Part shown: piece after piece, positions 3,212 through 11,965 of the stretch | How the letters are laid out: every line of letters begins with the position of its first letter | How positions within the stretch are numbered: position 1 is the first letter of the stretch | From: a virus | Virus record (IMG/VR): IMGVR_UViG_3300027833_000181 | Span: 1 to 28,542 of that record | Length of the DNA stretch: 28,542 bases | Strand: one strand, 5' to 3' | The notes under the pieces: generated by a model | Database searches by the model: none | What the model was told of the DNA's origin: nothing | What the model saw: only the letters and a program-made list of their open reading frames with translations | Made by a program: the position numbers and the translations under genes

Positions 3212-3510
3212 AAGTAGGATTATCTGTAAGAATCGATGTTACCAAGATCGACAAAAGCCGTCTTTATAAGGGCGCAAAGGGTACTTATCTTGACCTAACA
3301 ACCTTTGTCGATACGGAGCAGCAGGATCAGTATGAAAACAACGGATTTATCAGCCAGTCAACCACCAAAGAAGAACGCGAGGCTAATGTGCAGACCCCGA
3401 TACTGGGGAATGTAAAGGTATTTTATACCGATGGCAGTACGCCCAGCAGTGCGCCTGTACAGCAAGGTGGTATGAGTCTTGAAGAGTTAGATGATGATGT
3501 GCCGTTCTAA
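3208..3510 (+). CDS. Single-stranded DNA-binding protein-like
   Basis: The 100-aa protein starts with a beta-rich segment (MKVGLSVRIDVTKIDKSRLYKGAK) and ends in the acidic tail ELDDDVPF. That tail closely resembles the DDDIPF tip by which bacterial SSB proteins recruit replication and repair partners. Its place right after the annealase and exonuclease supports SSB function. It is shorter than bacterial SSB, as some phage versions are. The ATG overlaps the exonuclease stop (ATGA), and a GC-rich hairpin follows its own stop. Confidence 0.75.
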   Translation: MKVGLSVRIDVTKIDKSRLYKGAKGTYLDLTTFVDTEQQDQYENNGFISQSTTKEEREANVQTPILGNVKVFYTDGSTPSSAPVQQGGMSLEELDDDVPF

Positions 3511-3513
3511 CCT

Positions 3514-3537
3514 AAAAAAGCCCCTCTTTCGAGGGGC
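3514..3537. terminator. GC-rich hairpin at the end of the recombination operon
   Basis: GCCCCTC (3520-3526), loop TTTC, GAGGGGC (3531-3537) form a perfect 7-bp stem. Six A residues (3514-3519) precede it, so the strong U-run lies on the minus strand; on the plus strand AAACC follows. It may protect or weakly terminate the rightward mRNA. It would be an efficient stop for any leftward transcript coming from the 3600-4150 region. Confidence 0.6.
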
Positions 3538-3600
3538 AAACCATAGGAGGTTGCTGATCGGGGGAACCAGCCTAATTAATATATCACAGGAATTTTGACG

Positions 3601-3810
3601 ATGGAATTAATCGATGCAGGCAAATGCCTTAAAGCAGCACAAAAGGAACAAGGTATTACAAGCCGTGAATTGGCTAAACGCAGTGGGACATCACCGCAGC
3701 AAATGTTAAGGTGGCGCTCCAATAAAAACATCAAGCTACATACCATCCAGCTTTTAACCTTCCATTTAGGTATAAGCATCGATGCTTTTATAGCTTTTGG
3801 TAATAAGTAG
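3601..3810 (+). CDS. XRE-family (Cro/CI-like) DNA-binding regulator
   Basis: The 69-aa protein is little more than one helix-turn-helix domain: ITSRELAKRSGTSPQQMLRW (about 19-38) fits helix 2-turn-helix 3 of the XRE fold, followed by LHTIQLLTFHLGISIDAFI, where the last helices normally pack. Its size matches Cro-like repressors that bind as dimers. The ATG at 3601 is preferred, with AGGA ten bases upstream, over an in-frame TTG at 3595. The long non-coding stretch after it may contain its operators. No integrase or large CI-type repressor is visible, so a role in a lysogeny switch is unproven. Confidence 0.8.
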   Translation: MELIDAGKCLKAAQKEQGITSRELAKRSGTSPQQMLRWRSNKNIKLHTIQLLTFHLGISIDAFIAFGNK

Positions 3811-9103: not shown

Positions 9104-9465
9104 TGAGCATTTTAAAGTTTCAAGATCGCCTTGATGACATTGTAAACGGATTATTTCCAGAGTACCGTAACTGGGAGGGTGATCTAATTGATCTAAGCGA
9201 TGGCCACAAGGATCATATCTGCTACCATTTTTTGATCTGTATGCCCTCATGGTGGGATGATTGTTTCCCGCCTTGTATTGTAAATCGCGAAGACTTCCTT
9301 CATGAGCTGTACTTAAATTCAGGTTCGCAATCTATATCGGCCATTATCAGGGATGACATCTATCTTGCCCTAGAGCATACTTTGCGGGACTTAGTGCAGG
9401 AATCTTTTAATAGGGTTCACAATATCCAACCAGAGCCGTTCGCAGGCTATGAAAGAGGTGAGTAA
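9103..9465 (+). CDS. Hypothetical acidic protein
   Basis: The 120-aa protein starts at the ATG that overlaps the upstream stop (TAATG) and ends in a TAATG overlap with the next gene. It is acidic and rich in D, W and C, with CYHFLICMPSWWDDCFPPCI (about 43-62), where three of four cysteines cluster, and a helical C-terminal half. It has no clear membrane segment and no recognised family. Translational coupling on both sides suggests shared regulation with the small membrane proteins. Confidence 0.65.
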   Translation: MSILKFQDRLDDIVNGLFPEYRNWEGDLIDLSDGHKDHICYHFLICMPSWWDDCFPPCIVNREDFLHELYLNSGSQSISAIIRDDIYLALEHTLRDLVQESFNRVHNIQPEPFAGYERGE

Positions 9466-9578
9466 TGCAAATTATAATATCTGTTTTATTGGGTTTATTG
9501 GCTGCTGTGCTTTTTAGAGGTGCGTGGCTTATGGTTCAAGATGCCGAGCATCGATACAATGAAAGGCAAAAAAAATGA
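9465..9578 (+). CDS. 37-aa single-pass membrane peptide B
   Basis: The frame begins MQIIISVLLGLLAAVLF, a hydrophobic segment that fills the first 17 residues, then a short charged tail ending RYNERQKK. It starts in a TAATG overlap and ends in an ATGA overlap, with GAGGTG just upstream. Both features support it despite its size. The segment could be a membrane anchor or an uncleaved signal. The function is unknown. Confidence 0.55.
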   Translation: MQIIISVLLGLLAAVLFRGAWLMVQDAEHRYNERQKK

Positions 9579-9769
9579 AAGATATTAAGGATTTAATAGC
9601 TGAAGCGCATAAAAGTGCTGACAAAGCCATTAAGAAGGCGCAGAAAAGTGATCACTGGGCTAAGTTAAATGACTGGCTAAATGAGACAATAACCATTAAA
9701 CGGCTCTATTTTGCTGTTGTATATTTCGCGTTATTTGGTTTTATCGCGTATGAGGTTATAATCTTTTAG
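9575..9769 (+). CDS. Small tail-anchored membrane protein C
   Basis: The 64-aa protein has a lysine/aspartate-rich amphipathic N-terminal half (DIKDLIAEAHKSADKAIKKA) and a C-terminal hydrophobic segment at about 45-63 (YFAVVYFALFGFIAYEVII), a tail-anchored layout. The start overlaps the previous stop (ATGA). It is the last gene before the non-coding region that precedes the late operon. Small membrane proteins at this position in other phages can be exclusion or lysis-timing factors, but nothing here identifies which. Confidence 0.6.
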   Translation: MKDIKDLIAEAHKSADKAIKKAQKSDHWAKLNDWLNETITIKRLYFAVVYFALFGFIAYEVIIF

Positions 9770-9790
9770 CCAGCGTCCATAATGCGCCTC

Positions 9791-9893
9791 CTGCCAGCCT
9801 GATCCACTGGTGGCAGCAACGGATCACCAAGGCCGAGGTTACCTTAGTACCTTTTGACCCAGACTAGTCCACTGGGGGCTGATACGGACTACC
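9791..9893 (+). ncRNA. Tandem covarying hairpin/pseudoknot elements
   Basis: Two 35-nt units (9794-9828 and 9859-9893) match at 26 of 35 positions. Each has a CCAG box, 2 nt, a 6-nt arm, one A, a CTGG box, 10 nt and the complementary 6-nt arm. The arms are TGATCC/GGATCA in unit one and TAGTCC/GGACTA in unit two, so two base pairs changed on both sides. CCAG can pair with CTGG in each unit, which in this order gives an H-type pseudoknot with loops of 2, 1 and 10 nt. Unit one also has a competing CTGCCA/TGGCAG pairing. They lie after the accessory genes and before terminase. An RNA element (3' UTR or cis-regulator) fits best; a packaging site is the alternative. Confidence 0.55.
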
Positions 9894-9894
9894 T

Positions 9895-9921
9895 ATTACA
9901 ATATATATTCTAATATGTAAT
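9895..9921. repeat. AT-rich imperfect inverted repeat
   Basis: ATTACAATAT (9895-9904) and ATATGTAAT (9913-9921) are inverted copies apart from one extra A. The surrounding 9895-9955 is almost pure A/T. It could be an operator or a melting or packaging-related site. I see no ORF here. Confidence 0.35.
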
Positions 9922-10008
9922 ATTATACTTCAACTCACATATATCATAAATGGCATGGCATTCATGCTAAACCATCATTTCAAATCATAACCGATAAGCC
10001 TTAAAATG

Positions 10009-10030
10009 CGCCCCTAATCAATTAGGAGCG
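10009..10030. repeat. Hairpin upstream of the late promoter
   Basis: CGC and CCTAA pair with TTAGG and GCG around loop TCAA, with one C-A mismatch (10012/10027). No T-run follows, so a terminator is unlikely. It is a candidate binding or packaging site ahead of the terminase genes. Confidence 0.4.
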
Positions 10031-10103
10031 ACCCTTGATACTTTACATGATAGCCTTTACCCTCGTTTCCCTCTCACTCGTCGCCGTAGACGATCTGCAA
10101 TAG

Positions 10104-10133
10104 TTTACATTTCCGCTTAAAACCCGCTACAAT
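10104..10133 (+). promoter_or_regulatory. Promoter for the late (packaging and virion) genes
   Basis: TTTACA (10104-10109), 18 bp, TACAAT (10128-10133). Each box matches consensus at five of six positions. Transcription would start near 10140, about 23 bases before the first late gene. It is the only convincing promoter before the long rightward block. Confidence 0.6.
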
Positions 10134-10162
10134 GCCCCAACCAACTACAGTTCGGGTGTATC

Positions 10163-10414
10163 GTGGACTCTTTACAAGTAACTGCGCGAATAGATGAATG
10201 CCTATTCTTTGAGCTAGAAGATCACCTCTTTCAGTTTGATGCTATTATTGATTCGCTAATGGAAACTGACGTACAACGAAATCAAGTTCGTGATGCACTG
10301 TCTGACTGGTGTACATCGGTTAGTGAATCCGTAGAAGACATAACCGAAATCAAACAAAACGAAATCCAAGAACTTACACTAACGGCCGATGAAGTATTCG
10401 GCACTGAGGTTTAA
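10163..10414 (+). CDS. Hypothetical acidic protein preceding terminase
   Basis: The 83-aa protein starts with GTG and is strongly acidic and probably all-helical (ECLFFELEDHLFQFDAIIDS, then VRDALSDWCTSVSESVEDI). No family is recognised. It lies behind the late promoter, and its stop overlaps the small-terminase start by one base (TAATG), so it may be a packaging accessory or an early-late control protein. The ribosome site is weak (GGGTG). Confidence 0.6.
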   Translation: MDSLQVTARIDECLFFELEDHLFQFDAIIDSLMETDVQRNQVRDALSDWCTSVSESVEDITEIKQNEIQELTLTADEVFGTEV

Positions 10415-10776
10415 TGCGACCCAAGTGGATACCTGACGAGCTAGTATGCCGTAAAGCTCGCGAAATGGCTTCTAAGGGACTTACTGTTACGCAGATAGCC
10501 CATTGCCTTGGTGTAAGTGACGCAACCGTATACGAGCGCCAGAAGGAGTTTCCAGAGTTTTCAGAGGCTATAAAAAAGGGAAGGAGCGAAGGCATACATG
10601 AAGTTGCTAATGCTCTGTACGATAAGGCCGTTGGCGGCGATACTACTTCAATCATTTTCTACCTCAAGAAAAGAGATCGAGAGTCTTGGGGTGATGAATA
10701 CATCGACCCAGTAAAAGAGATTCCACCTATCAATATAATCTTGGATGCAGATGCAATTAACAAAGCCGCAGTCTGA
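10414..10776 (+). CDS. terS: Terminase small subunit
   Basis: The 120-aa protein has an N-terminal helix-turn-helix (GLTVTQIAHCLGVSDATVYE, about 23-42), followed by KEFPEFSEAIKKGRSEGIHE and a C-terminal KRDRESWGDEY segment. This is the standard layout of phage small terminases that recognise the packaging site and recruit the large subunit. It overlaps the large terminase gene by 32 bases. The non-coding DNA just upstream (9770-10162) is the natural place for its cos or pac site. Confidence 0.85.
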   Translation: MRPKWIPDELVCRKAREMASKGLTVTQIAHCLGVSDATVYERQKEFPEFSEAIKKGRSEGIHEVANALYDKAVGGDTTSIIFYLKKRDRESWGDEYIDPVKEIPPINIILDADAINKAAV

Positions 10777-11965
10777 GATTTTTCTTAGCAAGGCTAGATT
10801 TGTGGCTGTTGTAGCTGGTAGGCGTTTCGGTAAAACCTTTCTTGCTACTGGATCGCTGTTACGCGCTGCTATCAAAGCCCCTAATCAAAATGTTTGGTAT
10901 GTAGCTCCAACCTATGGGGCGGCAAAAGAAATATGCTGGCTCATGCTGCTAAACAGTATTCCACAAGAGTATATAGCGAAGACCAACGAAACAGCCCTGA
11001 CCATTAAGCTAATTAACGGATCGTACATCGCGCTAAAAGGGGCAGAGAAGCCAAATAACTTACGCGGACGAGCTTTGGACTTTGTTGTACTTGACGAGTT
11101 TGCGGATATGCGCCCAGAGACTTGGTACGAAGTAATAAGAGCTTCACTAAGTGACAGGCAGGGAGCAGCCCTATTTATCGGTACGCCTAAAGGCAGAAAT
11201 CATTTCTATGATCTATGGGCTAAAGGTAAAGACAAGTCGCATGATTGGGAGTCATTTCAGTACACCACCATTCAGGGCGGCAACGTCCCAGAAGAAGAGA
11301 TTGAAGCAGCTAAATCTGATCTAGATGAAAGAACATTTAATCAAGAATATAATGCAGCGTTCGTAACCTATGCGGGGCTTATCTATTATGGATTTAACCG
11401 CGAAGACTCCGTATTGGATATGGGCGATGATAGTGGTACACTCCACATTGGGATGGATTTCAATTTAGACCCAATGTCTGCCGTTATCTGTTTGCGTAAA
11501 GGCGGGAAGCTGTACGCAGTTGACGAGATAGTCATGTACGGGTCAAATACTGATGAGATGGTTTCGGAGATAATAGACCGTTATCCTCGACGCAGTATTA
11601 TTATTTATCCAGACCCAGCATCAAGACAGCGGAAAACCTCTGCTGGTGGTCGAACAGATTTGTCGATCTTACAGAACGCAGGATTTAGCGTTAAGGCGAA
11701 GAACTCACATGCATTGGTCAGGGATAGAATCAACGCTGTGAACAGTCGTTTACTATCGGGTGATGGTGAGCGGCATTTGTATATCTCACCGAAATGCAAG
11801 CAGACCATTAAGTCTCTTGAACGGCAGACATACAAAGAAGGGACGAGTATTCCTAACAAAGACGATGGGTTTGATCATATGAATGATGCCCTTGGTTACT
11901 TAATAGAATACCTGTTCCCTGTTCGTACTGAATACGCTACCCCCCAACCTACTAGGTGGACTTGA
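10745..11965 (+). CDS. terL: Terminase large subunit (packaging ATPase/nuclease)
   Basis: The 406-aa protein has Walker A GRRFGKT (25-31), Walker B VVLDEFAD (about 113-120) and an ATPase coupling segment FIGTPKGRNHFYD. The RNase H-like nuclease acids are visible in GMDFNLDP (about 236), YPDPAS (about 288) and DDGFDHMNDALGYL (about 372). It powers DNA translocation into the prohead and cuts the concatemer. A second in-frame ATG at 10751 is an alternative start. It is somewhat short but has every expected motif. Its stop overlaps the portal ATG. Confidence 0.95.
   Translation: MQMQLTKPQSEIFLSKARFVAVVAGRRFGKTFLATGSLLRAAIKAPNQNVWYVAPTYGAAKEICWLMLLNSIPQEYIAKTNETALTIKLINGSYIALKGAEKPNNLRGRALDFVVLDEFADMRPETWYEVIRASLSDRQGAALFIGTPKGRNHFYDLWAKGKDKSHDWESFQYTTIQGGNVPEEEIEAAKSDLDERTFNQEYNAAFVTYAGLIYYGFNREDSVLDMGDDSGTLHIGMDFNLDPMSAVICLRKGGKLYAVDEIVMYGSNTDEMVSEIIDRYPRRSIIIYPDPASRQRKTSAGGRTDLSILQNAGFSVKAKNSHALVRDRINAVNSRLLSGDGERHLYISPKCKQTIKSLERQTYKEGTSIPNKDDGFDHMNDALGYLIEYLFPVRTEYATPQPTRWT

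Follow-up and report, generated by a model that had tools for sequence, protein, structure and literature searches.

HK022 put RNA consists of two stem-loops directly behind the phage's early promoters and modifies RNA polymerase; it contains neither a pseudoknot nor a three-way junction. Three other described systems also resemble the phage locus analysed here. STAXI (RF01728) comprises tandem pseudoknot repeats near mobile-element genes; its function is unknown, and it was judged likelier to act as RNA than as single-stranded DNA (PMC2864571). ToxI and phage pseudo-ToxI are tandem RNA pseudoknots, and through the latter a phage can neutralise a host toxin in trans (PMC3475682). Flaviviral xrRNAs block the exonuclease Xrn1 and also bacterial RNase J1 (PMC5760640).

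The window, the whole 28,542-nucleotide stretch of IMG/VR virus record IMGVR_UViG_3300027833_000181, has a lambda-like layout in which Erf, an exonuclease, and NinB and NinG homologues are followed by small genes, a repeat, orf83, terS, terL, and the head and tail genes. Neither orf64 nor orf83, which flank the repeat, has a Pfam or PHROG match. The repeat consists of two modules of ~61 nt on the + strand (Table 1). In each, P2 and P3 are hairpins that meet the closing helix, P1, in a three-way junction, and the loop of P3 pairs with the strand right 3' of P1 to form a pseudoknot, PK. The opening nucleotides of module 1 are the TAG stop codon of orf64 (9767-9769). The composite motif occurs twice in the window and not once in 100 dinucleotide shuffles. 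A plain minimum-energy fold does not contain the structure (z +0.76), because the pseudoknot lies outside that model.

A sequence-only reading of the window had described two 35-nt direct repeats at a spacing of 65 nt, each laid out as CCAG, 2 nt, a 6-nt arm, A, CTGG, 10 nt and the complementary arm, and had taken each to be an H-type pseudoknot. The repeats lie at 9794-9828 and 9859-9893, are 74% identical with nine differences, and have exactly this layout; the two compensatory changes singled out at the time, G9801:C9825 to A9866:T9890 and A9802:T9824 to G9867:C9889, are as stated. The RNA pseudoknot also stands, but not as an isolated unit: it is part of a ~61-nt module built around a three-way junction. 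The 35-nt unit, though real, is its 3' half: the supposed 10-nt third loop contains the P1 3' strand, whose partner lies ~25-30 nt upstream of the unit's start, with P2 in between.

Table 1. Positions of the RNA modules, their helices and neighbouring features in the window.
Feature	Position	Strand	Basis
orf64, small protein with hydrophobic C-terminus; last gene before the RNA, stop codon abuts P1	9575..9769	+	
Module 1, complete ~60-nt unit	9767..9826	+	covariance-model match, 53.1 bits, E 1.3e-10
Module 1 P1 5' strand GCC, pairs with 9812-9814	9769..9771	+	P1 covaries in alignments A1 and A2
Module 1 P2 hairpin, GCG 9773-9775 / CGC 9785-9787	9773..9787	+	sequence; P2 in alignment
Module 1 P3, GCCAG 9793-9797 / CTGGT 9807-9811	9793..9811	+	motif scan and alignment
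Module 1 PK 5' arm TGATCC, pairs with 9821-9826	9800..9805	+	alignment, tree-aware test
Module 1 P1 3' strand GGC	9812..9814	+	alignment
Module 1 PK 3' arm GGATCA	9821..9826	+	repeat comparison, alignment
Module 2, complete ~62-nt unit	9830..9891	+	covariance-model match, 75.3 bits, E 3.2e-16
Module 2 P1 5' strand GGCC, pairs with 9877-9880 GGCT	9831..9834	+	alignments, tree-aware test
Module 2 P2 hairpin, GAGGT 9835-9839 / ACCTT 9849-9853	9835..9853	+	alignments
Module 2 P3, CCCAG 9858-9862 / CTGGG 9872-9876	9858..9876	+	alignments
Module 2 PK 5' arm TAGTCC, pairs with 9886-9891	9865..9870	+	alignment, tree-aware test
Module 2 P1 3' strand GGCT	9877..9880	+	alignment
Module 2 PK 3' arm GGACTA	9886..9891	+	repeat comparison, alignment
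Promoter-like TTCAAA-17-TAAAAT, candidate late promoter	9979..10007	+	consensus match only
Promoter-like TTTACA-N18-TACAAT, conserved	10104..10133		consensus match only
orf83, conserved downstream neighbour in closest relatives	10163..10414	+	
terS and terL	10414..11965	+	

Searches with TerS and TerL drew at least 118 loci, and the motif is present once or twice between the orf64 and orf83 homologues in nearly every relative listed. The tandem arrangement described from the window alone needs qualifying: the window has two modules, but many relatives have one. The PK arms of the relatives differ yet remain complementary (TAGTCC/GGACTA, TAGCCC/GGGCTA, TGATCC/GGATCA, TGATGC/GCATCA), and P3 changes in step (CCAG/CTGG, CAAG/CTTG, CTAG/CTAG, CTCAG/CTGAG). 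P1 appears as GGCC/GGCC, GACC/GGTC, GATC/GATC, GGTC/GACC, AACC/GGTT, ACGC/GCGT, ATGC/GCAT and AAGC/GCTT, and the P2 hairpin, between the P1 5' strand and P3, as AAGGC/GCCTT and AAGGT/ACCTT. A covariance model built from the nested helices only (R1) recovers the relatives' loci at E values of 1e-17 to 1e-8, in one place per contig; its 18-bit matches on the opposite strand of L144 and L206, which have no P3/PK core, are excluded as members.

Further groups were sought with a pattern fixing only CCAG..T...WCACTGG and ACGW...A. They include L038, L298 and their kin (P1 GTAGC/GCTAC, PK TGGTTC/GAACCA), L262 (PK TGGTAC/GTACCA), L289, L257 and L240 (P1 AGC/GCT, PK TGACTC/GAGTCA), L266 (P1 GACC/GGTC, PK TGGCTC/GAGCCA) and the tandem locus L235 (PKs TAGTCC/GGACTA and TGCCTC/GAGGCA). 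Where the earliest motif pattern matched inside a coding gene, as in L121, L134, L143 and others, the match is a false positive. Another pattern added L310, L314, L315 and the tandem locus L312, with PKs TAGTCC/GGACTA and TAGCTC/GAGCTA. The TerL proteins of L235, L310, L312 and L314 are 41-51% identical to that of the window. About 60-150 nt downstream of the L289 element, which is on the reverse strand, lies a candidate second module (GCGGC/GCCGC, AACAG/CTGTT, TAGTC/GACTA) with a long linker. A strict core descriptor demanding six Watson-Crick PK pairs gives 241 matches in 5.4 Mb of fetched strands and none in the reversed sequences, a simple control; most of the loci had been chosen because they have the motif. 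Among the matches listed, the module, single or tandem, is found in many uncultured, mostly marine phages. A blastn search of INPHARED with the window region and one relative's element gave no real match, and GTDB genomes searched by motif and by TerL gave none. Neither model nor descriptor finds the element in the fetched stretches of Pelagibacter phages HTVC111P, 112P, 026P and 202P, phage DSL-LC06, Pseudoalteromonas phage H103 and Vibrio phage pYD21-A, and R1 has no convincing match in the fetched stretches of these seven cultured phages or of two plasmids (F and ColIb-P9).

Two alignments carry the evidence for the structure. In A1, with 51 distinct modules and 20 pairs, 92.4% of 1003 cells are paired and 119 cells hold double changes, which fall at 14 of the 20 pairs; moving the partners by 1-3 columns lowers pairing to 29-55%. 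A2, which adds more distant matches for a total of 82 distinct rows, is 94.7% paired with 247 double-change cells (24-51% paired with partners slid). These figures and the tree-aware test below are partly circular, since the fit of A2 relied on the model and helices P1 and P2 came out of these very alignments; P3 and PK had been proposed from the window alone, before any alignment. From the alignment by itself RNAalifold recovers the PK helix, all five of whose pairs covary. A tree-aware null, a home-made stand-in for R-scape in which each branch's substitutions are re-dealt over the columns, places 10 of the 20 structure pairs at E<0.05, spread across P1, P2, P3 and PK, while 2 of 1633 other pairs are equally strong; the test is limited to the structure's own pairs and uses more sequences, an earlier all-pairs version having been underpowered. 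The sequence-only reading had attributed the paired differences between the repeats to selection on structure, and proposed a search of related phages with a covariance model. That search finds the covariation: relatives keep the motif with many more compensatory changes, and their arms do not vary without pairing, PK being 95.7% paired over 82 distinct sequences.

The wobble pairs give the strand. Over the 20 pairs of A1, G-U occupies 69 cells and A-C 14; since these counts would swap on the other strand, it is the + strand RNA that is selected. Comparison across relatives shows a conserved + strand RNA module, encoded at the locus in one copy or two. Unpaired positions vary, with two exceptions conserved at 97-100%: the A that separates P3 from the PK 5' arm, and the AC that precedes the PK 3' arm. 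PK pair 2 is a recurrent T-T mismatch in L138, L125, L225 and L314, and because of this recurrence in several groups, four to five pairs probably make up the functional core of PK.

These comparisons support the structured RNA family well. It has no counterpart in Rfam or in the open-access papers covered in a partial literature search. Rfam gives no gathering-level match in the window, none up to E 10 in 9560-10180, and no plausible match in six loci, in agreement with the earlier remark that no named family has this form. STAXI is the nearest described motif, as compared by Rfam model and description. Tandem pseudoknots occur in both; STAXI has two to three repeats, frequent UUCG loops and a home in Enterobacteriales, whereas the phage RNA has one or two modules, two in the window and one in many relatives, and no recurrent UUCG. 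At E values up to 10, the STAXI model matches neither the window region nor any of six loci; a single-family search of the window was likewise negative, with its controls silent as well, and no STAXI sequence was found for comparison in the F and ColIb-P9 plasmid stretches.

In helix order the module follows the flaviviral xrRNAs, with a P1 5' strand, P2, P3 and a P3 loop pairing 3' of P1, and it shares with them tandem copies and a 3'-UTR place in many loci. The three-way junction and the pseudoknot from the P3 loop to downstream sequence are both present, and all four helices covary. There is no sequence relation, and xrRNAs belong to RNA viruses, unlike the DNA phages here. Read by eye, the sequences do not conserve the pairing of 5'-end nucleotides with the junction: only some loci have a 5' flank that complements the P2-P3 linker (L007 with TCA/TGA, L120 with CAA/TTG), and L122 and L136 lack it. 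ToxI repeats are 36 nt, nearly identical and adjacent to toxN, whereas the phage modules are ~61 nt, form a three-way junction, are mutually diverged and often single, and are flanked by genes without a recognised family. Near-identical repeats beside a toxN-like gene, as in type III antitoxin RNAs of the ToxI kind, are absent here, the cores being 74% identical. ToxI and pseudo-ToxI serve as a precedent for the favoured trans mechanism; no kinship is claimed. HK022 put RNA is alike in being a phage-encoded structured RNA near an early transcription boundary.

The surroundings of the RNA change more than the RNA itself. In most loci, those of the window's lineage included, the module begins between about -3 and +16 nt relative to the stop codon of the last early-operon gene. 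In most phages the abutting gene (9465-9769 in the window, and homologous loci) encodes one of several unrelated small proteins, which have a hydrophobic C-terminus or a single membrane segment and change family between loci. terS lies ~0.6 kb downstream of the element in most loci, 2-3 kb downstream in some, and is replaced in others; in L266 the element stands ahead of an integrase. A tiny conserved hydrophobic ORF (~10035-10104 in the window), ending in ...AV(A/V)(A/V)DDL plus one residue, sits in the otherwise non-coding stretch between the RNA and orf83 in most relatives, and the promoter-like site at 10104-10133 lies directly behind it, upstream of orf83/terS in many of them. A terminator-like hairpin occurs within 350 nt downstream in 19 of 69 distinct regions, and none within that distance of the RNA in the window. 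In one clade only, that of L005, L010, L136 and L165, the element is followed at ~+78 by a very strong intrinsic terminator (ACCCC...GGGGGGTTTTTTT) that is almost the same in each locus.

Some modules lie behind promoter-like sequences. In L312 the tandem modules (3484-3620) begin 29 nt behind a 12/12 TTGACA-16-TATAAT promoter (consensus match only) and end in TTTTTT. The HNH gene, terS and terL of this contig are on the strand opposite the RNA, and no same-strand gene follows it; the segment 1789-3620, with a Walker-motif ATPase-like gene, a hypothetical gene and the tandem RNA, is inverted between HNH/terS and terL. L310 has an 11/12 promoter (again by consensus match only), then the module, then terS. 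In L289 the module is preceded at ~7 nt by the end of a TATAAT, a site passed over by the consensus scan; past the module, the relatives' sequences diverge. Immediately ahead of module 1 in the window the scan likewise finds no promoter; a TATAAT at 9757-9762, inside the last orf64 codons, stops 7 nt short of the first P1 base (G9769), much as in L289, and with its poor -35 is a lead only.

The RNA remains constant while its neighbours change, and a self-contained non-coding RNA is therefore preferred; it occupies one locus per contig and is joined to the stop codons of unrelated last genes in most loci. The favoured reading, with a probability of roughly 0.45, is that this would be a self-contained early non-coding RNA with a role in trans exerted by its shape, probably through protein binding. 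Such an RNA would be made early in infection; in the window's lineage it would be transcribed together with the early operon, as its tail, and in distant lineages from a promoter of its own. Its rigid shape may then be bound in trans by a host or phage protein, which might thereby be sequestered or inhibited, and two modules would offer two binding sites. With few conserved unpaired positions and no conserved seed, a partner that reads shape fits better than antisense pairing. The post-stop position in most loci would, however, suit a cis role in the 3'-UTR equally well and would count against action in trans.

A trans-acting RNA is ranked slightly above a protector of the mRNA 3' end, the main rival, in which the modules would block exonucleases, much as xrRNAs do mechanically, and so determine the 3' end of the early mRNA or how long it persists. 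The location just behind the last gene, the small share of regions with a terminator-like hairpin downstream, and a helix order matching that of a fold able to stop RNase J1 all speak for such a barrier, but the modules of L312, L310 and L289 stand behind promoter-like sites and not at an operon's end, and the flaviviral 5'-end-to-junction pairing is not conserved. A bolder and rather unlikely reading is that a tandem three-way-junction/pseudoknot fold able to stop nucleases or other RNA-tracking enzymes arose in DNA phages separately from that of flaviviruses; it would yield stable early phage RNAs, a phage counterpart of xrRNA and sfRNA.

Control of transcription in cis is less probable still. 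Here the nascent RNA would modify RNA polymerase, as put does, or block Rho, and so promote read-through from early to late genes. The element does lie between the early operon, with its NinB/NinG homologues, and terS in most relatives, and strong terminators follow in a minority of loci; yet most loci have no terminator nearby, the window has promoter-like sites downstream, put RNAs are plain stem-loops, and in L312 the late genes are read from the other strand than the RNA, whose downstream sequence is antisense to HNH and terS. A new riboswitch or ribozyme, binding a ligand or cleaving itself, would suit the compact pseudoknotted fold and its small invariant core (A, AC and fixed closing pairs), but is improbable: conserved unpaired nucleotides are few, the element usually lies behind a gene and not ahead of one, and no Rfam ribozyme or riboswitch gives a plausible match up to E 10. 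The packaging role that the sequence-only reading had also entertained hardly fits. A cos/pac or protein-binding site in DNA could lie ~0.6 kb upstream of terS, as the element does in many relatives, but it would be expected to lack the one-strand wobble preference (69:14) and crossing helices of a pseudoknot, terS is up to ~3 kb away or replaced, the L266 element precedes an integrase, and the L312 RNA has its own promoter-like site on the strand opposite terS and terL. Two other candidates were rejected: stop-codon readthrough, as in several loci, the window among them, the frame that continues past the stop ends within the element, and CsrA-type GGA sites, as the GGA of the arm turns into GGG or GCA along with its partner.

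The module is ~61 nt long and portable, so that simple first tests are possible whether it acts in trans or in cis. It represents an RNA family conserved across uncultured marine phages whose terminases share only about 41-51% identity. If its action is in trans, phages would have in it a new tool against a host factor; should it block RNA-tracking enzymes, the xrRNA solution would have arisen in phages too.
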